A stretch of DNA of 30,901 nucleotides from a virus, in IMG/VR virus record IMGVR_UViG_3300009159_000213, positions 1 to 30,901 of that record, one strand, 5' to 3'. The notes under the pieces are model-generated. The model ran no database searches. It was not told the origin of the DNA and worked only from the letters and a program-made list of their open reading frames with translations. Below, in pieces: positions 1 to 29,754 of this stretch. Position 1 is the first letter of the stretch, and the number at the start of each line of letters is the position of its first letter. Both the position numbers and the translations under genes were made by a program.

Positions 1-840
1 AATTGGTTAAACACTTGGACAGTGTCTACCAGATACAAATTGGGAGATGTGGTTCGTTATGGTGGACAATTGTATGTTTGTAATTTAGGTCACACATCCA
101 ATAGTTCTGCAACCACATTAGGTGGTGGATTGGAAGCAGATCAAGGCAAGTGGGATTACTTACACAAAGGTGTTGAATACAAAACTGATTGGGCAGTATC
201 CACAAGATACAAAATAAATGATGTTGTGAAATCAGGTGGCAGTCTTTGGATCTGTACCACATTTCACGTTTCCACAACCACATTGGCAGCAGATGAAGCC
301 AATTGGGCAATATTCATTCCAGGTTTAGAATTTGAAGACAGTTGGAGTTCAGTTACCAATTATAATGTGGGAGATTTTGTAACTTATGGAGGTTACAGTT
401 ATGTGGCTTCTACCAACAACACCAATAAAAATCCTTTCACATATTCAGGAGTTGATTGGCAATTATTCATCACAGGATTCAATCTAAGAGGAGACTACAA
501 CGGAGCCACTGCTTACAAAACAGGAGATGTGGTGCGTTTGGGTGGATTTACTTATATTGCAGTGGCAGATACCACAGGCAACAGACCACCTAATTTAACT
601 TATTGGAACAAATTAAATGAAGGCATCTATTGGAAAGGTGCTTGGACCAATGCCACTTATTACGACAAAGGTGATGTGGTACGAGGTATTATCAATACCA
701 CTGACAGTTATATTTGTATTCAACAACACACTTCAAATAATACAGGACCAACTGAGATTAATAAACCAGATGCTGCACCAGGACCTTATGTAAATCCAGG
801 ACCATACTGGCAATTGTTATCAGGCGGAGCAGAAAACAAT
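1..840 (+). repeat. Five tandem carbohydrate-binding-like protein repeats
   Basis: Five imperfect repeats of about 50 residues follow the pattern W-x4-6-Y-x2-GD-V/F-V-x2-G-G-x2-Y-x-C/A ... W. Examples are YKLGDVVRYGG, YKINDVVKSGG, YNVGDFVTYGG, YKTGDVVRLGG and YYDKGDVVRG. The spacing and the W/Y/GDVV core resemble the chitin-binding type 3 (CBM5/12) fold. That is a resemblance by eye only. The first repeat is cut by the window edge, so the full number is unknown. Confidence 0.7.
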
Positions 841-3800
841 GCACTGACCACTCAGGGAGATTTATTAATATACGGTCCATCAGGTCCAGTGAGATTACCT
901 ATCGGTGATCCAGGTCAAGTGTTGGCAGTGAACACAGCAGGCACATTACCAGAATGGAAATACTTTGGTAAAATAGACAACATTTGGTATGTGTCCACTT
1001 CAGGAGTTGATGAACCTGCACCAGGTTATGGACAAACATTAGACAAACCTTGGAGATCTGTGAGATATGCCAATCAACAAGTGGAAAGAGGAGCGTTATA
1101 TCCCAATGCTAGAAATTTATTATTGAGAAACAAAGCATTCATTCAAAGAGAAATTGTGGCTTGGTTGAATGCGACCTACACAGTCACTTGCACCAATACC
1201 ACAACTGGCACTGATTTGATCACCTGCAGCAGCAACACTGTTTTGAGATCAGGCATGGCTGTGAGATTCACTGGCACCACATTTGGCAATATCAACACGG
1301 GACAAACTTATTATGTATTAGCCGCAGGATTAACTGCAACAAAATTCAAAGTGAGCACATCAGTGGGCGGCACAGCAGTGCCTTTAAACACAGCTTCAGG
1401 CACAATGACTGTGGCGTTGTATTACAATACCACTTCAACTCAAAGAGATATGGGTCAAGTGACTGATGCTATATTATGGGATTTAGGTCATGGCGGCAAT
1501 GAAAGAACAAGATTAGCAGCATTGGAATATTTGACTTCTTCTTCACCAGTGTTGGGTGGTGGTGCTGGAGTATCTGTTGAATCTGTGGCAGCATTGAACA
1601 GATCATTGGTGATTATAGACTCTGTGATATCCAACGATGTAGGATACACTCCATCTCAAGGAGTTGTACTTCAAGTGGTTGATGCCACTGTATTGGAAGA
1701 ATCCACAGCACAAACACAGATTGAAAATTTAATGCAAATCGTTACAGATGCTATCACAGCAGGAGTGGACGATGATGTGCCATCAGAAATCATTGCCAGC
1801 AATACTGTTCTGGTAAAAACTGGTATGTATGAAGAAGTATTACCTATTAGAGTAAGAAAAAATACAGCCATAGTGGGAGATGAATTAAGATCAACCAATA
1901 TCAGACCAGCTGGCATCACCACTCCAGCCGGAACCACAGGCTATTGTTTAACAGGATTACAAAGAATGTACAACATCATTGATGATATTGTATTAAACAC
2001 CACAGTGACTCCCACACCTGGTGGAGGAGTGCTCACAGTGAGTGGTTATGGATTAACTGCTTTGACAGGTGGAGTATTCACAGGATCGTATACTAATATA
2101 TCAATTACAGGTGGAGCAGGATCGTCAGCCACATTTAACGTGATTGTGGATGCATCAAACTTTATCACTTCAGTACTGGTGAATACCACAGGTTCAGGAT
2201 ATGTGGTAGGCAACACATTAACTTTCCCAGGTAATTCTTTTGGAGCAGGCAGCTCTGCTAAAACATTCACTGTTGCCAGTGTATCTGCAGGCAACACACA
2301 AAGTCAAAACCAAGCAGGACCAGCAGGTTCAGCACCAGCAGCTTCAGCTGCAGCTTCTATTGCCACAGACATTTACAGTTACATCAATTACAGAATTAAT
2401 GCTGCAGGCAGTTTGCCAGCCACATCAGGCAGCAACACACCAGAGACTGCCATAGGTTACACAGATGCTGTGTTGAGAATCAATGCCAATATTGAATTTA
2501 TTGTGGCAGAAGTGGTGGCTTGGATACAAAAAACATGGCCAAATTACAATTTTACCACTGCATTGCAAGATCATTGTAAATCAGACAATAGAGAATTATT
2601 GCAAGGCATAATGGAAGATTTAATATACACTGGCAATTATAAATCATTGATTGCTGCTGAATGCTATGTGAATTCAGTGCTGGGTTCTGAAACGCAAAAC
2701 ATGTTCTTATTGAGAAATGCCACTGGTTTAAGAAATTGTACTTTACAAGGATTGTCTGGAACACTGGGTGCTCTTAATGCTTATGGCACACGCAGACCAT
2801 CAGCAGGTGCTTATGCTTCATTGGATCCAGGTTGGGGACCAACCCACGAAGAAGTTTGGATTTCTTCTAGATCACCTTATGTACAGAACGTGAGTACATT
2901 TGGTAATGGATGTATAGGATTAAAAGTGGATGGAAATTTACACAATGGTGGAAATGATTCCATCGTGGCCAACGATTTCACACATCTTATATCTGACGGT
3001 ATTGGAGCATGGGTGACTAATTTGGGCAGAGCTGAGTTGGTTTCTATATTCAGTTACTACTGTCACATTGGATATTTGGCTGAAAATGGAGGAAAAATTC
3101 GTGCTACCAATGGTAACAACTCATATGGATTGTATGGTTCAGTGTCAGAAGGTATGGACGTTACAGAAACTCCAATCACTGCCACAGTGGACAATCAAAG
3201 CACAGATGCCACAGTGGCCAATGTGTTCACTGATGGAAGCAGAATATTAGCATTAGAATACAGCAATGCAGGTGTAAATTATTCCAACGCAACCATTGAC
3301 ATCATTGGTGATGGATTTGGTGACATATTAACTCCAGTTTATAAAAACGGAGCATTGGAAGAAGTTAGATTATTAGAAACAGTGACATCCCCAGAAAGCA
3401 ACTTTGGTGGAGATGGCTATGTTCAATCAAGCAACGTGGCACAGAGTGGTACTCCTACTCAAATAACAATTTCCAACACAGACAGCAACAACAGTGCTGC
3501 TTTGATAGGAATGGCTGTTTATGTCACTGAAGGATTGGGTGCAGGTCAATACGGTTACATTGTGAGTTTCAATGCAGGTAGTAAATTAGCCAAAGTAGCC
3601 AAAGATTCATTCGACACATTAACAGTGACAGCTGCCACAGCTGCCACAGATTTATTCACAGTGGCCAGCACCAAAACATTGTATGTGAATCAACCCATCA
3701 TGTTCAGTGGCACAGCAGTGGGTGGTGTGAACGTTTCGGCCACCAACGTGACCATATATTACATAAAAACTATTCCTAATTCAACACAATTTACTATTTC

Positions 3801-6345
3801 CACTGCACAAGGTGGAGCAACATTTGATGTGGCCAGCAATGACACAGGCAGCATGACATTGCATGCAGCAGGTTGGGATCATTTGACTCCAAGAGTATGC
3901 ACTGTCACAGAAGCATCAGATCTTATCACCACTGACAACACATCAGGATTAGCAGCCAACATGGCTGTTATATTCACAGGCACCACATTTGGTGGCATTC
4001 AAAACAACACTGTTTATTATGTGATTTCTTCAGGATTTACCACTACAAAATTTAAAGTGAGTGCAAGTTTATCAGGACCAGCCGTGGATCTTTCTGCTGC
4101 CACAGGATCAATGACCGTAGTTCCTTGCGAATCGGTGTTGGATGGTACCACAAAATATTCCGTAGAACCAAGATTAATCATGTCGGCTCCCAGCACAAGA
4201 ACAGCAACAGCAGTTTCTTTTGCTCCTGCAACATCAGCCACTTATACCAAAGCATTATCCAGCTCAAGAACAGACTTTTTGATCACTACATCTTCTTATG
4301 ATGCATTTTCTCCAGCATTATCTGTGGGAGATGGAGTATATGTAAACACTGTGAACACATTAAGTTCTGTGGCAGTGACAGGAGCTGCTGGACAATTTTC
4401 ATGCACCAGCACATTATTGTATAAGGGAATGTCTGTGACTGCATCAGGCACTTTGGCCAACACAAACACATTAACTGGTGTATCTATCACAGGCACAGCA
4501 GGACAATTTTCATGCTCAGCTGCATCATTCACATTGGCAGTAGGACAATATATAACATTGAGCGGCACAGCACCAGCTGGAGGAGCTCAAGGCAGTATCA
4601 CTGGATATACCAATCCCACCACTTACAAAATCAGTGCTACTAACGGATCAACCACATTCACATTGCAAACAGTGGCCAACGCACCGATTGTGACCGCTGT
4701 AGGAACACCTACCACATTGACTTACAATGTGAGCTCTATTGCAGCTTACACTAGTCCGACCACTTATTATATCATTGCCACCAACGGCAGCACTACATTT
4801 ACACTATCAACTTCTGCAGGTGGTTCAGCTGTTGTGACTGCTGCAGGAACACCCACAGGTTTAACTTTTGTTGTGGACAGTTTCATTAATCAAGACACTA
4901 AAATTTCTTCAATCACTAGAAATTATATCACATTATCTACCATTTCTTACACAAGAATTATATTGAGTGCCGGTCCAGATCTTGATTCAACAGCAGCAGT
5001 GGTTAATGGTGACAACAATATCACAGTGACCTTTGCAGGTGTTCGAGCTAGAACTAGAGCAGTAGTAACAACTAATAAAATTTCTTCCGTTAGAATATTA
5101 GAACCAGGATCAAGTTATTCAAGTGTGCCTACCATGACCATAGTAGATCCTAGCAACTCTGTGGACGCACCATATGAAACTTTCATTGGCAATGGGGTGT
5201 TGGGTCAACCCACATGGACCAACAGAGGATCATCATATGTGACTGCTAGTTGTTTGATCACTGAAGATGGTTCACAAAAAACTGTGAGCGGAGTTACCAA
5301 AGCATCACCTGCAGTGGTTACCACAACCTCAGCACATGGTTATGCTGATGCGACCAAAGTGACATTCACAGGTCTGGCTGGCATGAACGAATTGAACACT
5401 GGTATTTGGTACTATACCAAATCCACAGGAGCCAACACATTTGAATTATATGTGAATGCAGCATTGACCACTCCACTGGACACTACAAATTTCCAAACAT
5501 TCAATCTTGGAGGCACTCCAAGAGTCACATCATTTGGTGGATACCGAGACAGCAAACAAAATGGAAAATTCATCAAAGTGGAAGGATTATCAGAAATTCC
5601 ACAGGCAGGAGCCAATGTACAATTCAGTCACTTGCCAACCACTTATTACAAACTGGTAAGTGTGCAATCACTATTGGGCACTCAATATCCTTACTCAGCA
5701 TTGTTGCAATTGAGTCCAGAAGTGAGTGTGAGCGATGCTGCAGCACATGGCACAGCAGTCACAATTAAAATAAGATATTCACAAGTGCGTTTAACAGGTC
5801 ACGACTTCTTGGACATTGGAACTGGTGGAAAAGCCACAACCAACTATCCTGGATTGCCTAGTCAAGAACCAGATTCAGACAATGAAACTGTGGAGAGTGG
5901 TGGTGGACGTGTGTTCTTTACCAGCACAGATCAAGACGGTAACTTCCGAGTGGGAGATTTATTCTCAGTAGAACAGGCCACTGGTATAGCCACTTTGAAC
6001 GCAGATGCATTTAATATTTCGGGACTACAAGAACTTCAGTTGGGGGATTTAACATTGGGAGGCACCAGTGCTTCTATCAATGAGTTTTCCACAGATGGAA
6101 CCATGTCGGCCAATAGCGATAGTATTGTACCGACACAGAGAGCAATCAGAACTTACATCGCCAGCCAAATTGGCGGTGGTGCAAGCTCATTAAACGTTAA
6201 CTTGCTTACTGCTGGATTGATTCAAATATCTGGAAATACTATCACAACAACAACTGGAGTAGGAATAACTATAAGTGCCGTGGTGAACTTTACTGGTGGA
6301 ATCAGTGGAGCTCCTGTGGCAATGAGTTACTTTGTACAAAGTTAA
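1..6345 (+). CDS. Giant tail-fibre/virion protein, 5'-truncated
   Basis: The frame is open to the left edge, and its first residues (NWLNTW) fit the W-x-x-S-x-x-Y repeat that follows, so the GTG at 22 is probably internal and the gene begins outside the window. Domains in order: five carbohydrate-binding-like repeats (nt 1-840); a GDLLIYG...W linker typical of phage fibres (about 856-960); an alpha-helical NKAFIQREIVAWL/RDMG...GGN segment (about 1125-1530); and a right-handed beta-helix region (about 1800-3150) with the SRSPYVQNV, NDFTHLISDGIGAW and NGNNSYGLYG motifs that are strongly conserved in marine T4-like fibres. Beta-rich Ser/Thr/Gly repeats follow (3600-5050). The C-terminus carries VPTQRAIRTYI, a fibre motif. 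The role is host recognition or peripheral baseplate structure. It shares modules with the 2334-aa protein at 15690. The fibre assignment is firm; the exact position in the virion is not. Confidence 0.85.
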   Translation, partial: NWLNTWTVSTRYKLGDVVRYGGQLYVCNLGHTSNSSATTLGGGLEADQGKWDYLHKGVEYKTDWAVSTRYKINDVVKSGGSLWICTTFHVSTTTLAADEANWAIFIPGLEFEDSWSSVTNYNVGDFVTYGGYSYVASTNNTNKNPFTYSGVDWQLFITGFNLRGDYNGATAYKTGDVVRLGGFTYIAVADTTGNRPPNLTYWNKLNEGIYWKGAWTNATYYDKGDVVRGIINTTDSYICIQQHTSNNTGPTEINKPDAAPGPYVNPGPYWQLLSGGAENNALTTQGDLLIYGPSGPVRLPIGDPGQVLAVNTAGTLPEWKYFGKIDNIWYVSTSGVDEPAPGYGQTLDKPWRSVRYANQQVERGALYPNARNLLLRNKAFIQREIVAWLNATYTVTCTNTTTGTDLITCSSNTVLRSGMAVRFTGTTFGNINTGQTYYVLAAGLTATKFKVSTSVGGTAVPLNTASGTMTVALYYNTTSTQRDMGQVTDAILWDLGHGGNERTRLAALEYLTSSSPVLGGGAGVSVESVAALNRSLVIIDSVISNDVGYTPSQGVVLQVVDATVLEESTAQTQIENLMQIVTDAITAGVDDDVPSEIIASNTVLVKTGMYEEVLPIRVRKNTAIVGDELRSTNIRPAGITTPAGTTGYCLTGLQRMYNIIDDIVLNTTVTPTPGGGVLTVSGYGLTALTGGVFTGSYTNISITGGAGSSATFNVIVDASNFITSVLVNTTGSGYVVGNTLTFPGNSFGAGSSAKTFTVASVSAGNTQSQNQAGPAGSAPAASAAASIATDIYSYINYRINAAGSLPATSGSNTPETAIGYTDAVLRINANIEFIVAEVVAWIQKTWPNYNFTTALQDHCKSDNRELLQGIMEDLIYTGNYKSLIAAECYVNSVLGSETQNMFLLRNATGLRNCTLQGLSGTLGALNAYGTRRPSAGAYASLDPGWGPTHEEVWISSRSPYVQNVSTFGNGCIGLKVDGNLHNGGNDSIVANDFTHLISDGIGAWVTNLGRAELVSIFSYYCHIGYLAENGGKIRATNGNNSYGLYGSVSEGMDVTETPITATVDNQSTDATVANVFTDGSRILALEYSNAGVNYSNATIDIIGDGFGDILTPVYKNGALEEVRLLETVTSPESNFGGDGYVQSSNVAQSGTPTQITISNTDSNNSAALIGMAVYVTEGLGAGQYGYIVSFNAGSKLAKVAKDSFDTLTVTAATAATDLFTVASTKTLYVNQPIMFSGTAVGGVNVSATNVTIYYIKTIPNSTQFTISTAQGGATFDVASNDTGSMTLHAAGWDHLTPRVCTVTEASDLITTDNTSGLAANMAVIFTGTTFGGIQNNTVYYVISSGFTTTKFKVSASLSGPAVDLSAATGSMTVVPCESVLDGTTKYSVEPRLIMSAPSTRTATAVSFAPATSATYTKALSSSRTDFLITTSSYDAFSPALSVGDGVYVNTVNTLSSVAVTGAAGQFSCTSTLLYKGMSVTASGTLANTNTLTGVSITGTAGQFSCSAASFTLAVGQYITLSGTAPAGGAQGSITGYTNPTTYKISATNGSTTFTLQTVANAPIVTAVGTPTTLTYNVSSIAAYTSPTTYYIIATNGSTTFTLSTSAGGSAVVTAAGTPTGLTFVVDSFINQDTKISSITRNYITLSTISYTRIILSAGPDLDSTAAVVNGDNNITVTFAGVRARTRAVVTTNKISSVRILEPGSSYSSVPTMTIVDPSNSVDAPYETFIGNGVLGQPTWTNRGSSYVTASCLITEDGSQKTVSGVTKASPAVVTTTSAHGYADATKVTFTGLAGMNELNTGIWYYTKSTGANTFELYVNAALTTPLDTTNFQTFNLGGTPRVTSFGGYRDSKQNGKFIKVEGLSEIPQAGANVQFSHLPTTYYKLVSVQSLLGTQYPYSALLQLSPEVSVSDAAAHGTAVTIKIRYSQVRLTGHDFLDIGTGGKATTNYPGLPSQEPDSDNETVESGGGRVFFTSTDQDGNFRVGDLFSVEQATGIATLNADAFNISGLQELQLGDLTLGGTSASINEFSTDGTMSANSDSIVPTQRAIRTYIASQIGGGASSLNVNLLTAGLIQISGNTITTTTGVGITISAVVNFTGGISGAPVAMSYFVQS

Positions 6346-6361
6346 AAAAGGAGAATAAAAT

Positions 6362-6682
6362 ATGGCAACAGGAAGATTAGGAACCGTTACTTTAGCAACA
6401 GGTACTAATGCTACTGTCTACACATGTCCCGCTGACACTTTTTCAGTGGTATCTGTGAATTTCTGCAATAGAAGCAATCAAGCACAAGCGTTTAGATTGG
6501 CTATAGCAGATGCCGCTACACCAACCACTTCAGAATACGTTGAATACGATGCTGAAGTACTTGCCAAAGGAGTTTTGGAAAGAACTGGATTGGTACTAGC
6601 AGCAGGACAGAAGATAGTAGCTTATGCTTCAGCAGCAGGAGCTAGTGTGGTTGTTTATGGTATTGAAACATCAACACTGTAA
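6362..6682 (+). CDS. Small virion/fibre-associated protein, 106 aa
   Basis: A 106-residue protein, rich in Ala, Thr and Val, with no signal peptide or membrane segment. It begins MATGRLGTVTL and has an alternating hydrophobic pattern suggesting a beta-sandwich; the segment FRLAIADAATPTTSEYVEYD is typical of small proteins found beside marine T4-like fibre genes. A strong Shine-Dalgarno (AAGGAG, 6348-6353) sits 8 bases before the ATG, and the gap to the giant fibre gene is 16 bases, so the two are almost certainly co-transcribed. I infer a structural or fibre-tip role from position; no catalytic motif is visible. Confidence 0.7.
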   Translation: MATGRLGTVTLATGTNATVYTCPADTFSVVSVNFCNRSNQAQAFRLAIADAATPTTSEYVEYDAEVLAKGVLERTGLVLAAGQKIVAYASAAGASVVVYGIETSTL

Positions 6683-6728: not shown

Positions 6729-7061
6729 ATGGGACGATATATATCAACAACTGGTACAGCCGGTGTAACGACTAGATCAGTATCAACAACCTACAGTGCC
6801 TTGGTCAATGACAGAATATTGGCTACCAGTGCTTCAGGTGCATTTACCATTACATTACCCACAGTCGCAAGTTTATTTGATAACGACACAATTCAAATTA
6901 TTGACGTGGGAAATGTTGCCAGCACAAATAACATCACAGTGCAAAATAATGGTGCAAAAATAAATGGAGTGCTTGATACTTTGGTAATTGACTTGAACGG
7001 ATCGATTACTACTCTAATTTATACTGGTGCAACTTATGGTTGGATCGTTGGTTCTGTATAA
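6729..7061 (+). CDS. Small fibre-domain protein, 110 aa
   Basis: A 110-residue free-standing copy of a domain often seen at the C-terminus of phage fibres. Visible landmarks are NDRILATSASGAFTITLP (residues about 27-44), the DTIQIIDVG strand, NNITVQNNGAKINGV, and a terminal LIYTGATYGWIVG. The pattern predicts a compact beta-structured trimerising or receptor-contact domain. The start is supported by AAAGGA at 6716-6721 and by a late-promoter-like element just upstream. It lies between fibre genes and is presumably expressed with them late in infection. The domain type is recognised from its motifs; the precise virion location is inferred. Confidence 0.75.
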   Translation: MGRYISTTGTAGVTTRSVSTTYSALVNDRILATSASGAFTITLPTVASLFDNDTIQIIDVGNVASTNNITVQNNGAKINGVLDTLVIDLNGSITTLIYTGATYGWIVGSV

Positions 7062-7107: not shown

Positions 7108-8082
7108 ATGCCGACAAATTTAAGAAACTTATTAGCATCCAAACAGGATTCCTTTGCGGCTTCACCTGAAGAAAATATCGAATCAGGTAGAATTTGGTTG
7201 TATTATCCTGGAGCAGGTTATGATAAATTTCCAGGAGGATTTTGTTTCAAACCTTGCGTGGCTGGAACTGCCACTGTGGAAGTTTGGGGTGCAGGCGGAT
7301 CTGGTGCTCAAATGTGTTGTTGCGGATACGGACTGCCAGGTAATCCTGGAGCTTATTCCAAAAGAAAAATTATATTAACTGCCTGCGGATATCTCACAGG
7401 TAACACAGGATATTCTTGCGGTGGTGCTGATGCTTTGTGTGACAGAGGTTGTGGCGAATCCAGTGGTATCACATGGTATGAACAAGGAACCACATGTTGT
7501 GGTTGTATTTGTGCTCAAGGTGGCAAAGGCGGAATCAGCTATTGTTCCACAGGCACATCAGGATATTGTTGTTTTGCAGGAAACGGATTTTGTGCTACCA
7601 AAACGAACAACGACAACTGCGGAATTATTTGTAACTACTGTCCAGGCATGTGGCAAGCCACTGCATACGGTGGATCAACCAATTGTCCAGGAGGATTCAG
7701 TAGAGTGAGTTTCTTTGGCTGTCAATTGTGTCCTTGCTACACCACTCAACACGTGAGAGGCCCTTCAGGTCAGATCAGTCAACAAGGAGTGGAAGTTTCA
7801 TTTGTAGGTATAGACGGATCAGGAGCATCCAACTGGTCGGGTCAAGGACGTCATGAAATGTTGGCAGCATTGTCAGCAACTACAAGATGGCCACAGATGG
7901 GTCACATGTTCTCCACTTGTTGGGGATTTTCAGGTGGTTGCGGATGTTATCAAAACGATGGATGTAAACATTATTATCCAGCAGGATGGCCAGGTTTGGC
8001 TCCTTATCCTTGCCCAGGAGTTAGAGACCATGCCAGCAGAGGTGGACATGGAGCAGTTAGAATTAAATTTGTGAGATCATAA
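7108..8082 (+). CDS. Cysteine-rich glycine-rich virion protein, paralogue 1
   Basis: 324 residues with 29 cysteines by hand count (about 9%), extreme for a phage protein. The N-terminus (LLASKQDSF, then NIESGRIW) is shared with the next two genes. The core VEVWGAGGSGAQMCCCG...GNPGAYSKR and the terminal RGGHGAVRIKF match the scaffold of glycine-rich phage fibre domains (GAGGGG ... GGyak ... GGxGxVrI), with Cys inserted at many positions: MCCC, CCGCIC, YCC, CGIICNYC, GCGCY, YPCPGVRDH. There is no signal peptide or membrane segment. The likely role is an exposed adhesin or tip protein stabilised by disulfides or bound metal. The glycine-rich scaffold is my reading of the sequence; the Cys function is inference. 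Confidence 0.7.
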   Translation: MPTNLRNLLASKQDSFAASPEENIESGRIWLYYPGAGYDKFPGGFCFKPCVAGTATVEVWGAGGSGAQMCCCGYGLPGNPGAYSKRKIILTACGYLTGNTGYSCGGADALCDRGCGESSGITWYEQGTTCCGCICAQGGKGGISYCSTGTSGYCCFAGNGFCATKTNNDNCGIICNYCPGMWQATAYGGSTNCPGGFSRVSFFGCQLCPCYTTQHVRGPSGQISQQGVEVSFVGIDGSGASNWSGQGRHEMLAALSATTRWPQMGHMFSTCWGFSGGCGCYQNDGCKHYYPAGWPGLAPYPCPGVRDHASRGGHGAVRIKFVRS

Positions 8083-8084
8083 TT

Positions 8085-9119
8085 ATGCCAGTTAGTTTAA
8101 CCACATTATTAAAAACCAAACAAGATTTCTTAGTATCAGGAATAGAAACCAATTTGGAAAAAGGTAGAATTTGGACCTATACTCCGGGTTCTGGAAGCGT
8201 AGGACATAATTTTCAATGTCACGTGTGCTGGATAGCACCGGGCACAGGCACAGCTCAGATTGAAATTTGGGGTGCAGGTGGATCTGGAGCAAAAATGTGT
8301 TGCTGCGGATTTGGAACACCAGGTAATCCAGGTTCTTATGTGAGCAAAACCATTGCTGTTACCTCAGGTTGTATTGTGTGTGGTGTGGTGGGATTGTCTT
8401 GTGGTAACTCAGACGATATATGTTTCAGAGGCAGATCAGACCCCACTCTAGTATGTTGGTTTGGAAGCAGCACCAATGGATGTATGTGTGCAGAAGGTGG
8501 CGTGGGCGGAATGAGTTTCTGTTCTAGCACTCCTTCCATGTACTGCTGTTTCACTGCCAACTGTTTCTGTACCACAAAGACAGGCAATGAAAACTGCGGA
8601 ACTATTTGTAATTTCAGAGGTTGTTCATGTGCTACTTGGAGCTGTTATGAAGCAGTGGGATTTGCTGGAATCGGCACAGTACCTGCGGCAGACAGCACTT
8701 GTGTTTGCAAAATCAATGGCGGTATCAGCTGTGTGTTGGCTCACGGATGTTATCCTATGTGTCATTGTGCTTACATCTATGTGTTGAGAACACCTCCAAA
8801 ATTCTTTGCAGATTGTGGAGCTTACATTTATTATACCACTGACAACGATAACGGAGTTTACAACTGGTCAGGTGCTACCATGGCCGGATATATTCATACA
8901 TTGGGACTAGCAGGTAAAAATGCTGCTCATGGTATGCACTATTCAGCTTGTTGGACTGGAAATAGATATTGCGGATGTTACAACATGAACGGTTGTATAC
9001 CATTTGCTCCTCCAGGTTTTCCAGGAACACCTCCACATCCATGTCCAGATGTGAGAGATCACGCATATCGTGGCGGACACGGACTGATTAGGATTAAATA
9101 CACAGGAACAGGAATATAA
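8085..9119 (+). CDS. Cysteine-rich glycine-rich virion protein, paralogue 2
   Basis: 344 residues with 34 cysteines by hand count (about 10%), the longest and most Cys-rich of the trio. The start lies 2 bases after the previous stop, so translation is probably coupled. It keeps IEIWGAGGSGAKMCCCG, GNPGSYVSKTI, CMCAEGG, YCCFTANCFC, NCGTICNF, CGCYNMNGC and CPDVRDHAYRGGHGLIRIKY. Compared with its neighbours it carries an extra Cys-rich stretch around residues 195-245 (CVCK, CYPMCHC) and a more variable segment around 235-275, where a receptor-contact loop could lie. I infer a tail-fibre or adhesin role like that of its paralogues. Confidence 0.7.
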   Translation: MPVSLTTLLKTKQDFLVSGIETNLEKGRIWTYTPGSGSVGHNFQCHVCWIAPGTGTAQIEIWGAGGSGAKMCCCGFGTPGNPGSYVSKTIAVTSGCIVCGVVGLSCGNSDDICFRGRSDPTLVCWFGSSTNGCMCAEGGVGGMSFCSSTPSMYCCFTANCFCTTKTGNENCGTICNFRGCSCATWSCYEAVGFAGIGTVPAADSTCVCKINGGISCVLAHGCYPMCHCAYIYVLRTPPKFFADCGAYIYYTTDNDNGVYNWSGATMAGYIHTLGLAGKNAAHGMHYSACWTGNRYCGCYNMNGCIPFAPPGFPGTPPHPCPDVRDHAYRGGHGLIRIKYTGTGI

Positions 9120-9122
9120 ATT

Positions 9123-10100
9123 ATGGCAGGATTAAAAAGTATATTATCAAGTAGATCTCCGTTGGACCCTACAGAAACTAACATTGAGCAAGGTGTTATT
9201 TTTGCTTTCAGTCCAGGAACTTTTTATACTCAATTTTGTAATTTTTTCTGCTGGAAACCACCAGCCACTGGCACAGCCCAAGTAGAAATTTGGGGATCTG
9301 GAGGTCCAGGAGCTCGTATGTGTTGTTGTGGTGGAGGATTACCAGGCAACTCAGGTGGATATTCTAAAAGAACTATCTCAGTGACTACCACTCAGTTTGT
9401 GTGTGGTTCTGTGGGATTCCCTCCTTATTCTCACTCTTTATGTTTTTCAGGCTGCGGTGACCCCACAGGAGTATGTTGGACCAGTACAACTACAAACGGT
9501 TGTATGTGTGCTCGAGGTGGTAGAGGCGGCACAGCTTTTTGTTCCTCAGGCACATCACTGTGGTGTTGTTTTACTGCTGGCGGATTTTGCGGTTGCGGTC
9601 CAGCTTCAGTTTGGGGAGGTGGAGACAACTGCGGTATAATTTGTAACCATTGTAGCGGTGGTTGGGAAGCATTGGCCTACGGTGGTGATGTGAACTGTTG
9701 TGGAACCATTGGATGTGCTTCATTCTTTGGATGTTATCCAAATTGTAATTGTAACTTTATTCATCATGCTGCTATTCCTCCAGGAATGTATGCTGTGGAA
9801 GGTGCCACAGTTTCATACAGACCAGACACAGATGCAATACCATCCAGTCAGTGGTCAGGAAACCAATTAACTCAATATCTTTCTGCTCTGGGCTCATTGA
9901 GCAAAGGTGCACAAAGAGGAGTTCCTCAAACATCTTGTTGGAGATCAGATGCATCTTGTGGATGTTATGAAATGCAAGGATGTTCACCATTCTTGCCAAT
10001 TGGAGCAGGTGGATTACCTCCATTACCATGTGGAGATGTGAGAGACCACGGTATTAGAGGTGGATGGGGAGGAGTACGAATCAAATTTATAGCCAGTTAA
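9123..10100 (+). CDS. Cysteine-rich glycine-rich virion protein, paralogue 3
   Basis: 325 residues with 30 cysteines by hand count (about 9%). The gap from paralogue 2 is 3 bases, with an ACAGGA ribosome site inside the preceding gene. The conserved landmarks are VEIWGSGGPGARMCCCG, GNSGGYSKRTI, CMCARGGRGG, WCCFTAGGFCGCG, NCGIICNHC, CGCYEMQGC and CGDVRDHGIRGGWGGVRIKF. The N-terminus (ILSSRSPLDPTETNIEQG) is the most diverged of the three. Conservation is concentrated in the Gly/Cys core and the C-terminal VRDH...RIK signature, and the middle third is variable, as expected for adhesins that diversify after duplication. Confidence 0.7.
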   Translation: MAGLKSILSSRSPLDPTETNIEQGVIFAFSPGTFYTQFCNFFCWKPPATGTAQVEIWGSGGPGARMCCCGGGLPGNSGGYSKRTISVTTTQFVCGSVGFPPYSHSLCFSGCGDPTGVCWTSTTTNGCMCARGGRGGTAFCSSGTSLWCCFTAGGFCGCGPASVWGGGDNCGIICNHCSGGWEALAYGGDVNCCGTIGCASFFGCYPNCNCNFIHHAAIPPGMYAVEGATVSYRPDTDAIPSSQWSGNQLTQYLSALGSLSKGAQRGVPQTSCWRSDASCGCYEMQGCSPFLPIGAGGLPPLPCGDVRDHGIRGGWGGVRIKFIAS

Positions 10101-10144: not shown

Positions 10145-10801
10145 ATGATAACTAAAAATTTTAATATACCTCTAAACGACGAACCATACAAAGATACCAA
10201 AACTTTGAACAAAGTTTGGCCAGCCACTTATAATGGTCCTAGATACATTAAAGTTCAAATAGATTCAACCACCCATTTTGTAGATCGTTATGTATACATG
10301 ACAGATAAGTCGGAAGAAATGAATTCATTTGACAATTATCCCAAAGAGCCAGGAAAATATTGGCAAACAATTGATGCCACAATAAATCCATTTGAAGCTG
10401 CGTATGTTACGGGACTGTATGACACAGGTGTGACAGACAACTATCAAACTGAGTTGGGTACTTTGGACGACAATGGCGACCCAGAAACTTATGAGTTTGG
10501 TTATGATGACCAATCAGGCATGATAGCACAAACCTACTATTCACATGAATTAAAATTTCAAAACGGTGCATGGGTAATGCCAAGATTTAGAGTGCATGCT
10601 CTATCAAGACAACAATTCTTAGACAGTTTGCAAACTCAAATTCAAGGAATTGAAAAAGGATTAGCCGAAAATACTGAATTAACAGAGGAACAAAAAACAA
10701 AGTTATTAGAATACAAAACTTGGTTAGAAAATGTACCTACCAAATATGCTGCAGTGGATCACTGGAAAATCCCATTCAAACATCAGGTACCAATTTACTA
10801 A
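10145..10801 (+). CDS. Unknown protein, candidate fibre-assembly chaperone
   Basis: 218 residues, hydrophilic and rich in Tyr and Asp, with no membrane segment. The N-terminal two thirds is beta-rich and not recognised (WPATYNGPRYIKVQ, GKYWQTIDATINPFEA). The C-terminal third is helical and charged: QQFLDSLQTQIQGIEKGL, then LTEEQKTKLLEYKTWLENV and WKIPFKHQVP. An ending of helix, Y-x-x-W-L, then W-x-x-P resembles the end of phage tail-fibre assembly proteins, and the position right after the adhesin-like genes fits such a role. The resemblance is weak and a structural function is equally possible. The start is set by AAGGA 6 bases upstream. Confidence 0.5.
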   Translation: MITKNFNIPLNDEPYKDTKTLNKVWPATYNGPRYIKVQIDSTTHFVDRYVYMTDKSEEMNSFDNYPKEPGKYWQTIDATINPFEAAYVTGLYDTGVTDNYQTELGTLDDNGDPETYEFGYDDQSGMIAQTYYSHELKFQNGAWVMPRFRVHALSRQQFLDSLQTQIQGIEKGLAENTELTEEQKTKLLEYKTWLENVPTKYAAVDHWKIPFKHQVPIY

Positions 10802-10840: not shown

Positions 10841-10873
10841 TATAATACTGTGTGACCAACACACACAGTATTA
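10841..10873 (+). promoter_or_regulatory. Perfect 12-bp inverted repeat overlapping a TATAAT
   Basis: TAATACTGTGTG (10843-10854) and its exact reverse complement CACACAGTATTA (10862-10873) flank a 7-base loop, ending 2 bases before the ATG at 10876. A perfect TATAAT lies at 10841-10846 and overlaps the left arm; no -35 hexamer is evident. No Shine-Dalgarno is visible because the dyad occupies that place. It could be a repressor operator or an RNA stem that controls translation. There is no U-tract, so it is not a classical terminator. Confidence 0.6.
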
Positions 10874-10875
10874 CT

Positions 10876-11820
10876 ATGACAAGATCTAAAGCATTTTTTT
10901 TAAACGGAGGTATTGGCAGAATAATCTGTGCTATTCCAGCATTGGAAAAGTACGCTGCTGAATCTGGTGACAAAGATTTTATAGTGGTAATTGAAGGTGT
11001 TTCAGACATATTCAAAGGACATCCTATACTGGATGCTAAAACTTATGAAATGTTTCATAAAAATCTTTTTCAAACTAAAATAGCTGAACGAGAAGTAATT
11101 AGTTTAGAACCATACAGAGTTTGGGAATATTTCAATCAAAAATGTAATCTTTCTCAAGCATTTGATATATTAATCAATGACAAAGGCATAAGAGATTTGC
11201 CTGCTCCTACATTTGTATTATCCAAAGAAGAATTAATTATGGGTAAAAAAGTTGTTACTGATATCAAAGATAAAATTAAAAAAGATAAAACAATTATTTT
11301 TCAACCTTTTGGCAGGGGTATTGAACATTTAGATAAAAGTTTTGTGGATAAAACTGGAAGAAGTCTTGAATTTAAAAATATTAAAAGTTTAATTAAAAGA
11401 CTTCAAGCAGAAAATTTTGCTGTGATATTGATGTCAGAATTTGGAATAGATTTGAAAGATCAAAACTATTCGGATGAAGTGGCCATGTTAGAAAATGTGA
11501 GTTTGAGACAATGGGCAGCTATTATTAAAAATGCTGATCATTTCTTAGGTTGTGACAGTGTGGGACAACATCTGGCCTATGCTGTGGGAACACCCAGCAC
11601 AGTGGTATTAGGACCAACATATTCAATCAATACTTCTTATCCCAATTGTGAGTTTTTTAATATATTAGACATGGGCGAACTTGATAGAGAATATGACCCT
11701 ATAAGAATTACCATGGATGAAAGAATCAGCAGAAAAAACGAATTATTAATGAGTATGAATGATGAAATAGAAGAATTTACTATAGGAACAATACTAGGAA
11801 AGAATAAAAATGAAAAATAA
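10876..11820 (+). CDS. GT9-family (heptosyltransferase-like) protein A
   Basis: 314 residues from the ATG at 10876. An in-frame GTG at 10852 exists, but it lies inside the inverted repeat, and alignment with the paralogue at 13623 favours the ATG. The N-terminal motif FFLNGGIGRIICAIPALEKYA and the C-terminal FLGCDSVGQHLAYAVGTPSTVVLGPT match the two signature regions of GT9 ADP-heptose transferases (GD-hxxxPAL, and DSxxxHLAxAxGTPxxxLxGPT). The GD aspartate is replaced by Arg (GIGR), so catalysis may differ. The role would be transfer of a sugar from a nucleotide donor, possibly ADP-heptose from HldE/HldD. It overlaps the carbamoyltransferase by 11 bases. Family confidence is good; the donor and acceptor are inferred. 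Confidence 0.75.
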   Translation: MTRSKAFFLNGGIGRIICAIPALEKYAAESGDKDFIVVIEGVSDIFKGHPILDAKTYEMFHKNLFQTKIAEREVISLEPYRVWEYFNQKCNLSQAFDILINDKGIRDLPAPTFVLSKEELIMGKKVVTDIKDKIKKDKTIIFQPFGRGIEHLDKSFVDKTGRSLEFKNIKSLIKRLQAENFAVILMSEFGIDLKDQNYSDEVAMLENVSLRQWAAIIKNADHFLGCDSVGQHLAYAVGTPSTVVLGPTYSINTSYPNCEFFNILDMGELDREYDPIRITMDERISRKNELLMSMNDEIEEFTIGTILGKNKNEK

Positions 11821-13618
11821 ACCCACAGGATACATAGCAGCTATTGCTAGAGGACACAATTCAGGAGTTTGTCTATTGAAAGATGGACAAGTAGTTTTTT
11901 CTATTGAAGAAGAAAGATTAAGTAGATCCAAATACGATGGTGGCCCTTATGCCAGCATGATTGAAATACTCAAATACACAGATAAGATAGATTACTTGAT
12001 TGTAGCACACACTCAAAAACTCAAAGACACTGCAGGCAGAGTGGACTTTTCAGGAGATGATGTTTATACTGGGTTGGCTCGTAAATTGGGATTGATTGAC
12101 AGAACAGCTGATGTTATGAATCACCCTCAAGTGATTGATTTAAGTCATGTCCATCATAAACTTCATGCTGCTTGTGCTTTTTATAGATCAGGTTGGAATG
12201 ATGCAGTGGCTGTGATTGTGGATGGAGCAGGAACATTTATTCCTATTAGCAATAGTATTCAAGGACAAACCACAGTTTGGGAAGTAGAATCAATAGTAAA
12301 TTGCAACTATCCTTCGAATTTTCACACACTATACAAACACTATGGAAATAAAGATCCTATGGTAGGAGCTATCTTTGATAATTTTGCTTCAGACATCACA
12401 GACGAGGCGGGCAAAACACATCAAGCCGTATTCTCTGACAGAGCTGGTATTGTAAAAGTTTATGAAGCCGTGACACAGTATTGTGGATTTATGCCCATTG
12501 AAGCCGGCAAAACCATGGGATTATTTCCTTATGGAAAACCCAATGATAAAATTCCAAAATTATTTGAAGACAATTCTAAATTGCCATTGTCCAATAGAAA
12601 TTTAATTGTGCCTACATATCCCAATGCTGGTTATGTGAATTTACAGATATTTGATTATCTTTGTGACAATATAGACACAATTTATGATGATGTCACAATT
12701 TTACAAAATAGAAGAGACATGGCGTATGCTTGTCAAATGGAAACTCAAGAGCAAGTTTTAAAATTAATTCGTAAAGCAGTGGCCATGAGCAATAATAAAA
12801 AAGTAGTGTTGTCTGGAGGATATGGATTAAATTGTGTGGCCAATTATTATTATTTAGAACATTTAAGAAAAGAAGGTATTGAATTTTATGTGGAACCAAT
12901 ATCTAATGATGCTGGCACAGCAATGGGAGCAGCATTGATGTTTTATCATCAAATATCTGCTGACAAAACTCCCAAAGTTCATGATACATTATACTTGGGT
13001 CCTAAGAGAGAATACACCTTATCTGACCTTGAAGTAAGAATCAAAGACAATAATAAAATCATAATATCAGATGCTACACATAAAGATGTTGTTAAATTAA
13101 TGAGATCAAAAAACATAGTGGCCATGTTCCAAGGCAGATCAGAGAACGGTCCTAGAGCATTGGGTAATAGATCCATATTGTTTGATCCAACATTCAAAGA
13201 CGGAAAAGATTTTGTTAACACAGTTAAAAATAGAGAATATTTTAGACCATTTGCTGGAACCATACTGCAAGATGATGTGCATGAATGGTTTGATCTGCGT
13301 GGCATGAATGATTCTCCATTCATGATGTATGCTGTGAATTGTCAACCAGGAGTGGCAGAAAAAATTCCTTCAATTATTCATGTGGATGGCACTTGTCGTA
13401 TACAAACAGTTACTGAAGAACAAAATAAACATTATTACGATCTGATAAAAACATTCAAAGACGAAACAGGTATACCTATATTGTTTAACACTTCGTTTAA
13501 TTTGGGTGGAGAACCTTTGGTAGAAACTTTAGATGATGCAGTTAGAACCCTGGAAAATTCTAAAATAGAATATCTTTATTTGCCAGAATTTAAAAAATTA
13601 TTATACATACCTAATTAA
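11810..13618 (+). CDS. NodU/CmcH-type O-carbamoyltransferase
   Basis: 602 residues, the usual length for the family. The N-terminal ASKHA-like domain begins GYIAAIARGHNSGVCLLKDG, contains IEEERLSRSKYDGG (32-45), a metal-type HHKLH (115-119) and VDGAG (137-141). The C-terminal domain has NGPRALGNRSIL (446-457), FRPFAGTI and FNTSFNLGGEPLV (559-571). Family members transfer carbamoyl from carbamoyl phosphate, through carbamoyl-adenylate, to a hydroxyl on a sugar or antibiotic; phage members acting on 5-hydroxymethylcytosine in DNA are also known. The SD TAGGAAAG (11795-11802) lies inside the upstream gene. Placement between two GT9-like genes favours a sugar acceptor. The family is certain; the substrate is not. 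Confidence 0.92.
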   Translation: MKNKPTGYIAAIARGHNSGVCLLKDGQVVFSIEEERLSRSKYDGGPYASMIEILKYTDKIDYLIVAHTQKLKDTAGRVDFSGDDVYTGLARKLGLIDRTADVMNHPQVIDLSHVHHKLHAACAFYRSGWNDAVAVIVDGAGTFIPISNSIQGQTTVWEVESIVNCNYPSNFHTLYKHYGNKDPMVGAIFDNFASDITDEAGKTHQAVFSDRAGIVKVYEAVTQYCGFMPIEAGKTMGLFPYGKPNDKIPKLFEDNSKLPLSNRNLIVPTYPNAGYVNLQIFDYLCDNIDTIYDDVTILQNRRDMAYACQMETQEQVLKLIRKAVAMSNNKKVVLSGGYGLNCVANYYYLEHLRKEGIEFYVEPISNDAGTAMGAALMFYHQISADKTPKVHDTLYLGPKREYTLSDLEVRIKDNNKIIISDATHKDVVKLMRSKNIVAMFQGRSENGPRALGNRSILFDPTFKDGKDFVNTVKNREYFRPFAGTILQDDVHEWFDLRGMNDSPFMMYAVNCQPGVAEKIPSIIHVDGTCRIQTVTEEQNKHYYDLIKTFKDETGIPILFNTSFNLGGEPLVETLDDAVRTLENSKIEYLYLPEFKKLLYIPN

Positions 13619-13622: not shown

Positions 13623-14573
13623 ATGAATTCAGCATTTTTTATCAACGGTGGAGCAGGTAGAACAATATGTTCTATACCAGCACTGGAAAATTACGCCAAA
13701 GAAAATCCCAAAGATGATTTTATTATAGTGTGTGAAGGCGGTACAGATTTTTACAAAGGACATCCTATATTGCATAATAAAGCATATGATGTGTGGCACA
13801 AAAATATATTCAATGATTATTTAAAAGATAGAAAATTATATTCTCCAGAACCATATAGAGTTTGGGAATACTACAATCAAAAATGCAGTATCAGTCAAGC
13901 ATACGACATAGCAATTAATAAAAAAGGTGTGAGGGAATTACAAAGACCTAAAATATATCTATCCAAAGAAGAATTGATATTTGCTAGACAAATGATTAGT
14001 GAGGTTAAAGAAAAAACTAAAAAAGAAAAAATTGTAGTGATTCAACCTTTTGGAAGAATTATGTCTAAAAAAGAAGAGGATTTTAATGACATCAGTGGTA
14101 GAAGTATTGAGATAGAAAATTTAAAACATATCATAAGACAACTGGGCAAACAGTATGGCATAATATTAATGAGCGAATTTCCTTTGGATTTTGCCAAAGA
14201 TGGAATTAATTATCCCATAGCTATACCACAAAATGTACACATTAGAATTTGGTCTGCTGTGATCAAAATGGCTGATCATTTCTTAGGTTGTGACAGTGTG
14301 GGTCAACACATAGCTTATGCTTTTGAAAAAACTGCCACGGTATTAACAGGAGCAACGTTTCCAATAAATGTTTCATATCCAAATGAGCCCAAATTTGATG
14401 TGATTGATTTGGGCAAAGAACGTAGAGTTTACAGTGCCATAAGAATCACCATGGATGAATATGCTGATCGCACCAATGAAGGCATAATGGAGATGGATTC
14501 TGAAATAGAAAATAAAGTTGTACAATCTGTAAACAGTTTGCTCAAACACGGTTATAAAAAAAATAAAAAATAA
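13623..14573 (+). CDS. GT9-family (heptosyltransferase-like) protein B
   Basis: 316 residues, paralogous to the protein at 10876 along its whole length: FFINGGAGRTICSIPALENYA at the start, EPYRVWEYYNQKC in the middle, FLGCDSVGQHIAYAF near residue 222 and IRITMDE near the end. It also has Arg instead of Asp in the GD position. The stretch coding for the DSVGQH motif is identical over 32 bases with paralogue A (14271-14302 and 11533-11564), which suggests strong constraint or gene conversion. The gap from the carbamoyltransferase is 4 bases and no Shine-Dalgarno is visible, so translational coupling is likely. A second sugar-transfer step or a second acceptor is possible. Confidence 0.75.
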   Translation: MNSAFFINGGAGRTICSIPALENYAKENPKDDFIIVCEGGTDFYKGHPILHNKAYDVWHKNIFNDYLKDRKLYSPEPYRVWEYYNQKCSISQAYDIAINKKGVRELQRPKIYLSKEELIFARQMISEVKEKTKKEKIVVIQPFGRIMSKKEEDFNDISGRSIEIENLKHIIRQLGKQYGIILMSEFPLDFAKDGINYPIAIPQNVHIRIWSAVIKMADHFLGCDSVGQHIAYAFEKTATVLTGATFPINVSYPNEPKFDVIDLGKERRVYSAIRITMDEYADRTNEGIMEMDSEIENKVVQSVNSLLKHGYKKNKK

Positions 14574-22694: not shown

Positions 22695-23093
22695 TTATTT
22701 TTCAATATTATTGGCGACTATTTCTTTGGATTGACTGTCACCTCTGATAATTCTATAATTATCGTTGGGGTCATCAGCAGTGCTCACTTCAGTCACGCTG
22801 CCAAAATCACTCAAACATTCCAGTTGATGTGGCATTAACGGACTGTTTCTCCAAGTGTCTCCTGGTTTTAATTCTTTTTCTAATAACGTGGCATTTTGTG
22901 TGTCTATCCAACGCAATTTAAAATTGCCTTCATTCACAAACCAGCTCTCATCTTTATTCTTATGAAAGTGCATGCTAAACTTGGCATTTTTGCGTGTGAA
23001 ACACATTATTTTGCCACAATATTGTTCATTGCTGGCCCAAATAATTTCGTAACCCCAACCTTTATCTACTTTGCCTTCTTTATTGATTATCAT
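22695..23093 (-). CDS. Cupin-fold protein, sugar-isomerase-like
   Basis: 132 residues, a single RmlC-like cupin. The first motif is HFHKNKDES (H42, H44, E49), and H89 in PHQL is the fourth expected metal ligand. The opening KGWGYEIIWASNEQYCGKIM resembles small phage and bacterial cupins related to type II mannose-6-phosphate isomerase. Last gene of the minus-strand string, it overlaps the 2OG oxygenase gene by 4 bases (ATGA). Possible roles are isomerising or binding a sugar phosphate, or sensing; its company with HldE/HldD makes a sugar substrate attractive. The fold and metal site are supported by the sequence; the substrate is unknown. Confidence 0.8.
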   Translation of the reverse strand: MIINKEGKVDKGWGYEIIWASNEQYCGKIMCFTRKNAKFSMHFHKNKDESWFVNEGNFKLRWIDTQNATLLEKELKPGDTWRNSPLMPHQLECLSDFGSVTEVSTADDPNDNYRIIRGDSQSKEIVANNIEK

Positions 23094-24565: not shown

Positions 24566-25382
24566 TTAAATCAAGATATTCTTTTATAGTTTTAAATTTT
24601 ATATTCACATGAGACTCTAATAAATCTATGTCAGCACAAGTGTAACTTTGATATTGTGCTTTCAATTGATCAGGCATGGGTATTAATTCTATACGAGCAT
24701 TATATTTTTTAGCAATCATTTCTGCCACAGCAGCAAAACTCACAGGTATTCCTGTGCCTACATTAAAAATACCACTCACATCTTTGTTTAGCATTTGTTC
24801 ATGTACGTCACAAACATCATCCACGCACACAAAATCTCTCTGATAATTTTCACTTTTTTCAAAAATTTTAATTACTCCTGTTTGTTGAGCTTGTTGAATA
24901 AATTTTGAAACTGGTGATGCTTGGTTTCCTTTGTGATCTTCATATGCTCCATACACATTAAAATATCTAAATCCTTGTATTAATATGTTATATTCATTGT
25001 AAGGAACAGATTTGATCATTCTATCGAATAAAAATTTACTCCAAGCATAAGCACTTTGAGGAGACATGGCAGCACTTTCTTTAAAATTTTTAGTTTGTCC
25101 ATACACGCTGGCTGAACTGGCATATTGAAAATTAACTCCAGACATATCACACAACTGAAATAGTCTATAACTAAATTCAAAATTTTGAATCATTATTTTT
25201 TCCACATCTGTTTCGGTGGTGCTGCTGATAGCACCCAAATGTATCACTTGATCATATTTGGCTGGATCTGGAAACACATTGGGAATATAATCATATCCTT
25301 CCACTGTGTGTCCTTTATGCACCAAATATTTAAATAGATTTTGACCTATAAATCCTTTGTGTCCTGTGATTAATATTCTCAT
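24558..25382 (-). CDS. hldD: ADP-L-glycero-D-manno-heptose 6-epimerase
   Basis: 274 residues, an extended short-chain dehydrogenase. The NAD(P) motif is TGHKGFIG (6-13), the catalytic YxxxK is Y112-K116 in YAWSKFLFD, and GFRYFNVYG (137-145) with HKG (150-152), RDFVCVDDV (182-190) and GIFNVGTG (204-211) follow the HldD pattern closely, including PDQLKAQYQSYTCADI at the end. It epimerises ADP-D,D-heptose to ADP-L,D-heptose. At 274 residues it is shorter than bacterial HldD (about 310), mainly from a compact region before residue 60. It overlaps hldE by 4 bases (ATGA). The close resemblance to HldD rather than to generic epimerases makes this one of the firmest enzyme calls. Confidence 0.9.
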   Translation of the reverse strand: MRILITGHKGFIGQNLFKYLVHKGHTVEGYDYIPNVFPDPAKYDQVIHLGAISSTTETDVEKIMIQNFEFSYRLFQLCDMSGVNFQYASSASVYGQTKNFKESAAMSPQSAYAWSKFLFDRMIKSVPYNEYNILIQGFRYFNVYGAYEDHKGNQASPVSKFIQQAQQTGVIKIFEKSENYQRDFVCVDDVCDVHEQMLNKDVSGIFNVGTGIPVSFAAVAEMIAKKYNARIELIPMPDQLKAQYQSYTCADIDLLESHVNIKFKTIKEYLDLND

Positions 25383-26629
25383 GATTGCAATCTATCTATA
25401 ATTTTTGTGGTGGAAAATCCTTCCACTGTGGGAAATATAATCACTTGTGCCAATTCATTGCCCACTGTGGTGGCCACTGTGTAATCCCCACCTTTAACAA
25501 TGATGTCTGGTTTAATTTCTTCTATGATTCTTTGTGGAGTATCTTCAGCAAATATTACCACTTCGTCCACCCAAGGCAACATTTCCAATTGACGTTTTCT
25601 TATGGCATAATCATTTACTGGTCTGCCCTCACCTTTTAATCTATGCACACTGGTATCATCATTTATACCCACTATTAATTTTTTACCTTGATTTCTAGCA
25701 AACTTTAACAATTCCAAATGTCCTGTGTGCAGTATATCAAACACTCCATTGGTCCATACTACTCCTTTGTTTAAATCTTCTTTGGTGACAGGCACAACAC
25801 CAAATTTTTCCACATTTCTTGCCGCAGCATAACAAGCCAATTCACAAGCACGTGGCACCGTCATGCCTCGCTTGATACCATATGCTATCACGGCCAACAC
25901 AGTGTCTCCTGCTCCTGTGACATCTGCCACTTCTCTCACAGGTTCTTTCACATGTGAGTATGATCCTTCTTTGGAAACAATATGAATACCTTTGGCTCCA
26001 TCAGTGATCACCAGCCATGACCAACGGTGTGTTTGAGCAAATTTTGCAGCTGAATCTACATCAAACGCACCATTCCAAGACTCATATTCTTTCATATTGG
26101 GTTTTACTAAAAATGCTCCATCATAATAGTCAGCACTTTGTTTAGGATCTACTAGTACCCACTGAGTTTTTTCTAAAATACTTTTTACTGTGTGTGATTT
26201 AATAACTCCTTTGGCATAATCACTGATTAATACCATGCTTTTTTCTGTGAGAGAAAGTAACAGTTGAGATAAACAACTGTCTTTGGTATATTGTTTTTCT
26301 CTATCCCAACGCAGTATGTGCTGACCCCTTTGTTCAACTAATCTTATTTTTGTAGTGGTAATAGGAGCATCTTCTGCTATGGATAGAAACACATTGCTGT
26401 TTTTTAATAAATTAACCAACCCGTATCCATCTGTATCTTTGCCCACTGCTCCATACAATTGCACATCATTGTAAATGGCAGCCACATTCACTGCTAAATT
26501 AGCAGCACCACCTGGAGAAACTTTTTGATTTTGTTCTAATAAAATAGGAATAGGTGCTTCAGGTGACATGCGATCAGCAGTGCCTACGATCCAACGATCC
26601 AGCATTATATCGCCGATTATTTTGATCAT
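25379..26629 (-). CDS. hldE: Bifunctional heptose-7-P kinase / heptose-1-P adenylyltransferase
   Basis: 416 residues with both domains. The PfkB-type kinase domain (1-285) has SPGGAANLAVNVA (38-50), VLVDPK (158-163), KPNMKE (176-181) and the DVTGAGD catalytic motif (236-242). The nucleotidyltransferase domain (290-416) has TNGVFDILHTGH (293-304, HxGH motif), RLKGEGRP (330-337), KGGDY (379-383) and GFSTTKII (404-411). It phosphorylates D-glycero-D-manno-heptose 7-phosphate at C1 and then adenylates it to ADP-heptose. Bacterial HldE is about 477 residues, so this copy has a trimmed linker but all main motifs. It forms TAATG with the Nudix stop and overlaps hldD. GmhA and GmhB are absent from the window. 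Confidence 0.93.
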   Translation of the reverse strand: MIKIIGDIMLDRWIVGTADRMSPEAPIPILLEQNQKVSPGGAANLAVNVAAIYNDVQLYGAVGKDTDGYGLVNLLKNSNVFLSIAEDAPITTTKIRLVEQRGQHILRWDREKQYTKDSCLSQLLLSLTEKSMVLISDYAKGVIKSHTVKSILEKTQWVLVDPKQSADYYDGAFLVKPNMKEYESWNGAFDVDSAAKFAQTHRWSWLVITDGAKGIHIVSKEGSYSHVKEPVREVADVTGAGDTVLAVIAYGIKRGMTVPRACELACYAAARNVEKFGVVPVTKEDLNKGVVWTNGVFDILHTGHLELLKFARNQGKKLIVGINDDTSVHRLKGEGRPVNDYAIRKRQLEMLPWVDEVVIFAEDTPQRIIEEIKPDIIVKGGDYTVATTVGNELAQVIIFPTVEGFSTTKIIDRLQS

Positions 26630-27559: not shown

Positions 27560-27608
27560 ATCAGAACGTTCTAAAAGTATTCTACTGATACCTGCTTGAT
27601 AAATTCAT
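27560..27608 (-). other. Apparent 1-base frameshift at the start of the gp15-adjacent gene
   Basis: On the minus strand the sequence begins ATGAATTTATC, with TGA being the gp15 stop. Read from this ATG it gives MNLSSRYQ then a stop. With one T fewer it reads MNYQAGISRILLERSDM and joins the 160-residue frame. The 4-base ATGA overlap is the usual junction style in this gene string. Confidence 0.6.
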
Positions 27609-28540: not shown

Positions 28541-28542
28541 GA

Positions 28543-29700: not shown

Positions 29701-29705
29701 GCGTA

Positions 29706-29748: not shown

Positions 29749-29754
29749 CCTTTA

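Follow-up and report, generated by a model that had tools for sequence, protein, structure and literature searches.

Three tandem cysteine-rich paralogues in an aquatic phage: probable tail-fibre tip adhesins of a widespread family

Phage structural proteins are normally poor in cysteine. In the window analysed here (the whole 30,901-base stretch of an IMG/VR virus record), three tandem open reading frames with only a few bases between them encode proteins that contain 9.0, 9.9 and 9.2% of this residue (A, B and C, respectively), whereas the other proteins of the window hold 66 cysteines in 9123 residues (0.72%). In each of the three, the excess over chance is greater than 20 orders of magnitude (binomial). 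The locus raises the question of what these proteins are and what their cysteines do. The lengths, cysteine counts and coordinates reported for them in an earlier note are all exact, and the motifs that it listed (MCCCG, C(M/I)CAxGG, CGxICN, CGCY and C(P/G)(D/G)VRDH...RIK) are present in all three proteins, whose pairwise identity is about 41–46% (up to 46% for A and C):

7108..8082 (+): paralogue A, 324 aa, 29 cysteines, putative cysteine-rich, glycine-rich fibre-tip adhesin (phrog_4205, E 2.8e-6)
8085..9119 (+): paralogue B, 344 aa, 34 cysteines (phrog_4205, E 3.7e-6)
9123..10100 (+): paralogue C, 325 aa, 30 cysteines, the copy that was modelled

The phrog_4205 profile is matched by A, B and C (E 4e-7 to 4e-6) and by all 19 members of set A2, which is made up of cultured-type relatives and the window. 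Altogether, 579 open reading frames in 197 loci match the family profiles, all of them with 7.6–12.2% cysteine, in a set whose scan seeds were peptides from cysteine-rich proteins and in which cysteine-poor members of the family may be under-sampled. The IMG/VR scan gave 66 loci from C and about 125 further loci from B and the cultured relatives. In the phage collection, tblastn of A and C produced no match at E 1e-5, and B, used with a looser limit, led to cyanophage relatives. In fact, the cassette has been found in the cultured cyanophages P-SSM2, P-SSM5, S-CAM1, S-CAM3, S-SSM7/S-SSM6a and Sf-FS3, where all the proteins are annotated as hypothetical. The cyanophage proteins of phrog_4205 and phrog_35878 (PSSM2_304 and _306 of P-SSM2, and those of S-CAM1, S-CAM3 and S-SSM7) belong to the same family, with the same synteny, 24–36 cysteines and two to three tandem copies; they differ in having about 25% identity across lineages and lineage-specific copies. 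In one group, paralogue B carries an insertion and reaches 408–416 aa with 40–42 cysteines (L045:3761-4996 and relatives). Bacterial and archaeal genomes gave a single match, on a contig of 15 kb from a Euryarchaeota MAG (L201, PAOW01000006.1) that is probably a mis-binned phage contig. With regard to the host, psbA is present in S-SSM7, S-CAM1 and P-SSM2, and neither psbA/psbD nor hli was matched in seven window-type contigs of 96–364 kb, possibly incomplete (L034, L045, L035, L012, L026, L048 and L194); the clade of the window may infect a non-photosynthetic host rather than cyanobacteria.

The trio is embedded in a tail-fibre region, whose other genes are the following:

1..6345 (+): long tail fibre gene, at least 2114 aa, running off the window (phrog_9851 tail fiber protein, E 1.7e-156; in 70 of 72 loci)
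6362..6682 (+): conserved small fibre-region protein, 106 aa (phrog_11338 tail fiber protein, E 2.7e-10; 68 of 72 loci)
6729..7061 (+): conserved small fibre-region protein, 110 aa, directly 5' of the trio, resembling C-terminal parts of tail-fibre PHROGs (68 of 72 loci)
10145..10801 (+): tail-fibre assembly chaperone, 218 aa, without cysteine, homologues of which adjoin the trio in all lineages

The conserved order is long fibre, 106-aa protein, 110-aa protein, A, B, C, 218-aa protein, GT9-like protein and NolO-like carbamoyltransferase, and in nearly every locus the trio comes right after the long fibre gene and the two small fibre proteins. The long fibre probably carries the tip. At its in-window start (1-105), it matches a CBM_5_12 carbohydrate-binding module (E 1.6e-16). 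The chaperone family comprises 210 homologous open reading frames in these loci; many members match PHROG tail-fibre-assembly families, and Pfam Phage_tail_APC is matched by 22 of 76 relatives (best 9.6e-12). A fold search with the chaperone model (pLDDT 96) gave no clear whole-chain match, the C-terminal helices alone resembling small Tfa-sized proteins (Z about 6.5). Some loci contain two chaperone genes in tandem (the L013–L033 group; for example, 6015-6668 and 6720-7382 of L017). Together, the genes of the long fibre, the two small proteins, the adhesins and the chaperone form a complete tail-fibre-tip cassette.

Directly 3' of this cassette, a NolO-like carbamoyltransferase gene lies between those of two GT9 heptosyltransferase-like paralogues (10852-11820, 11810-13618 and 13623-14573), and an HldE-like kinase/adenylyltransferase (25379-26629), an epimerase and a cupin are also encoded in the window. 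This looks like an LPS-type sugar modification cluster conserved by the tip genes; sugar genes are close to the cassette in the cultured phages too. The cupin (22695-23093, minus strand) is called a 'cysteine dioxygenase' in relatives (phrog_7851), and an action on the cysteines of the tip was considered and rejected on the grounds of its Pfam matches (generic Cupin_2 and a weak D-lyxose isomerase) and its location inside the sugar cluster; it is probably a sugar cupin. Finally, homologues of a tail sheath stabiliser, a virion structural protein and a head-tail adaptor at 27605-30513 show that the gene content of the window is T4-like.

The AF2 model of C, obtained from 81 sequences (pLDDT 80, pTM 0.81), displays a short N-terminal helix, a beta domain formed from both chain ends and a long distal part. 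Its best match among solved structures is the fibre protein gp24 of cyanophage Pam3 (Z 16.2, rmsd 3.0, 191 residues aligned), followed by the Bxb1 tail tip (Z 12.0) and the TNF-like plus glycine-rich domain of ALK/LTK (Z 8–10), with unrelated rows at or below 4.5; the BFVD matches include S-CAM3 and P-SSM2 homologues and Syn9 gp38. The Gly_rich_2 family (PF21722) is matched by 8 of the 19 members of A2 (best 4e-10), and the trio itself gives no match at E values of up to 1; the three proteins are related to this family without being filed as members. No match was found in a sequence search of solved structures with both family profiles. The glycine-rich fibre-domain scaffold proposed in the earlier note is borne out by the Pam3 gp24 fold match and by the Gly_rich_2 matches in relatives. 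The trimeric fibre Pam3 gp24 consists of a helix, a TNF-like domain and a distal tip, rich in glycine and presumed to bind the receptor, and it is folded by the chaperone gp25 (PMC9608196). Both hallmarks of tips of this kind, the TNF-like plus glycine-rich fold (as predicted) and an adjoining dedicated fibre chaperone gene, are found in the trio (compare PDB 7YPX and 7YFW). The Pam3 tip, however, has 39% glycine and is the product of one gene, in a paper that does not mention cysteine, whereas the trio has 9–10% cysteine and 15–18% glycine, is spread over three genes and has an N-terminal helix that is much shorter. From the fold match to gp24 and the adjoining fibre chaperone gene, we infer that A, B and C are receptor-binding adhesins placed at the fibre tips of the virion.

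The explanation that we favour, and consider reasonably probable as a whole, is that A, B and C are tip adhesins of the long fibre. Each would combine a TNF-like beta domain with a short docking helix at the N-terminus and a glycine-rich lattice at the distal end, and the product of the adjacent chaperone gene would help them to fold. In this family, cysteine would have taken the place of some of the polyglycine lattice, and the scaffold cysteines would most likely form a dense disulfide network, within chains and perhaps between them, once the virion meets oxygen-rich water. Such a network would stiffen a tip that otherwise depends on backbone hydrogen bonds between glycine-rich strands. The three proteins would together constitute one mixed tip (1:1:1), and not three redundant adhesins.

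The suggestion of a mixed tip comes from the strict retention of three different copies. All 100 unique loci whose flanks leave room for further copies have exactly three in tandem, and these loci represent three deep lineages (window type, 55/55; S-CAM type, 17/17; S-SSM7 type, 28/28). Two copies have been found in both P-SSM2-type loci (n = 2) and in contig L040, the latter in spite of having the 110-aa gene 5' of the copies as well as the chaperone gene 3' of them. A maximum-likelihood tree built from 57 representative loci groups the three copies by major lineage and not with their positional counterparts elsewhere (support 99–100 for the S-CAM, S-SSM7 and P-SSM2 groups), and further turnover is seen within lineages (A with C in the L034 type, A with B in the L045 type, B with C in L176), reflecting either repeated triplication or copies converting one another. 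The number three being kept while the identities of the copies turn over is the main hint that three different subunits may be needed together. Alternatively, A, B and C might be three separate homotrimeric adhesins with different receptors, that is, a host-range set; this is a serious contender, to which we give somewhat less than an even chance. Pam3 gp24, the closest solved relative, is itself a homotrimer (PMC9608196), several adhesins are common in phages, the paralogues are more than 50% different and have variable stretches, and the two-copy types exist. On the other hand, host-range sets should vary in number, which is at odds with the constant three across deep lineages despite the turnover within them, and one chaperone gene serves all the copies in most loci. 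Co-change of cysteines between chains was also examined; a single pair proved significant, formed by one and the same column of A and C, and concerted evolution explains it better.

Other glycine-rich tips give a measure of how unusual the composition is. The gp38 adhesins of T2 type (S16 and PP01, with a polyglycine-II sandwich), compared here through the literature, share with the trio a glycine-rich tip, a short N-terminal attachment, a conserved lattice and variable loops, but they have a beta-helix instead of the TNF-like domain and one gene per fibre. More closely placed are gp36, gp38 and gp39 of Synechococcus phage Syn9, a member of the same virus family; they are glycine-rich tips encoded at the equivalent place, 3' of the long fibre gene. 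They differ in composition, with 22–35% glycine and 0.8–2.5% cysteine (gp36, 35 and 2.5%; gp38, 22 and 0.8%) against 14–18% glycine and 8–12% cysteine in the trio family. In a profile comparison, the segment W-x-x-P-x-G-V...WGAGG aligns the family with Syn9 gp38 (weakly with A1, E 1e-5 with A2), and CCC stands in one where glycine stands in the other. At the level of sequence, this alignment and the Syn9 compositions support the idea that cysteine took over part of the polyglycine lattice in the trio family. Syn9 gp39 (L202:16150-17328) consists of two near-copies of a glycine-rich module and an out-of-character joining stretch, as if by duplication with a frameshift.

The cysteines are part of the tip scaffold rather than of the variable stretches that contact the receptor, as indicated by their conservation by position and by their alignment across lineages. 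In C, residues 1–24 and the last strand (317–325) contain none, residues 25–61 contain two, and the remaining 28 occur from residue 62 on, almost entirely in the distal part of the model. When its positions are ranked by conservation, 23 of its 30 cysteines belong to the best-conserved third and one to the most variable third. Within the clade of the window, mean conservation is 86% for cysteine and 69% for glycine, and 21 of the 30 cysteines are conserved at 90% or more. Between deep lineages (about 25% identity), 46–59% of cysteines align with cysteine, against a background of 10–11%, and 13 cysteine columns are common to three or more deep lineages. The invariant C272, C279 and C281 are located in a low-confidence part of the model of C.

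As to the state of these cysteines, the evidence leans to disulfides rather than metal. Disulfides are the likeliest outcome because the cysteines are dense, conserved and scaffold-bound, the surrounding water is oxygenated, adjacent strands in a glycine-rich lattice are about 5 Å apart (PMC9608196), and there is a precedent in Agrobacterium phage Milano, in which a modest cysteine enrichment gives rise to an extensive disulfide network in the virion (PMC10811340). Cysteine-enriched virion proteins (putative ones in the trio) are common to both systems, and the bonds of the trio are predicted; in Milano, however, cysteine amounts to 1.4% overall and 2.1% in structural proteins and is spread over sheath and baseplate (PMC10811340), whereas in the trio it reaches 9–12% and is confined to the tip proteins. 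On the tree, cysteines in the variable columns were hardly ever gained or lost in pairs (after correction, a single pair in a single clade, the invariant cysteines being outside the test), and odd cysteine totals are nearly as frequent as even ones, whether counted by protein or by trio. These two observations argue against a strict one-to-one disulfide code, although a dense lattice with alternative partners need not follow such a code. A sulfhydryl oxidase of the Evr1/Alr type was not matched in the phage genomes, in a search whose control was equally without a match anywhere.

A second possibility is that the cysteines of the mature tip remain reduced, where they would either pack the glycine lattice as small side chains or supply thiols for reaction with the host surface. 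This we regard as unlikely. Assembly takes place in a reducing cytoplasm, single cysteines are lost without a partner, and, in the comparison with Syn9, the cysteines stand where canonical tips have glycine or other small residues. Nevertheless, mostly-cysteine columns often accept a charged or bulky residue (R, Y, D, T) in place of cysteine, so that smallness and burial alone do not describe these positions, and free thiols at 9–12% would be hard to keep in oxygenated water. Less probable still is that the tip binds metal, its cysteine clusters holding Fe, Zn or Cu in a structural role or in imitation of an iron source (the Ferrojan Horse). The cysteine density and the frequency of CC and CxC, 1.5 times expectation, also fit metallothionein-like sites, unpaired gain and loss and random parity would be natural in flexible metal clusters, and iron in the tail has been put forward for marine phages (PMC11705849). 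Against it, CxxC, the commonest cysteine metal motif, occurs at 0.92 of expectation (metallothionein-like binding being still compatible with this), histidines are few (about 7 per chain), and exposed thiol sites would oxidise in oxygenated water. The HxH iron-binding fibres of the Ferrojan Horse (T4 gp37 and R22Y) resemble the trio in that a marine phage tail tip is proposed to interact with host uptake systems, but none of the three proteins contains the HxH motif, which only 133 of 408 family members have; the iron at the tip suggested in the earlier note has thus found no positive support. Finally, a codon or compositional artefact is ruled out, since cysteine is the best-kept residue type in the clade of the window and both TGT and TGC are used in all 22 strongly conserved cysteine columns.

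The trio represents a cysteine-rich variant of a known fibre-tip type, a variant that is real, widespread and apparently undescribed; full-text literature searches on cysteine-rich cyanophage or phage tail proteins, of partial coverage, yielded no description of the family, and virion proteomics covering its proteins did not turn up either. The approximately 2% of cysteine in the structural proteins of Milano was already notable, and here a putative receptor-binding tip has 9–12%, kept across hundreds of contigs from aquatic phages, with three copies in nearly every case. The cultured P-SSM2, S-CAM1 and S-SSM7 carry the trio family, which makes the disulfide, metal and 1:1:1 questions testable now. 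A more ambitious reading, offered here as a tentative conjecture, is that a heterotrimeric tip of three cysteine-rich adhesins, in which a disulfide lattice replaces polyglycine, is widespread in aquatic T4-like phages and possibly needs reduction or thiol exchange at the host surface. If the favoured explanation is true, these phages would have a new way of stabilising a glycine-rich adhesin in water, and their fibre tip may be one of mixed subunits.
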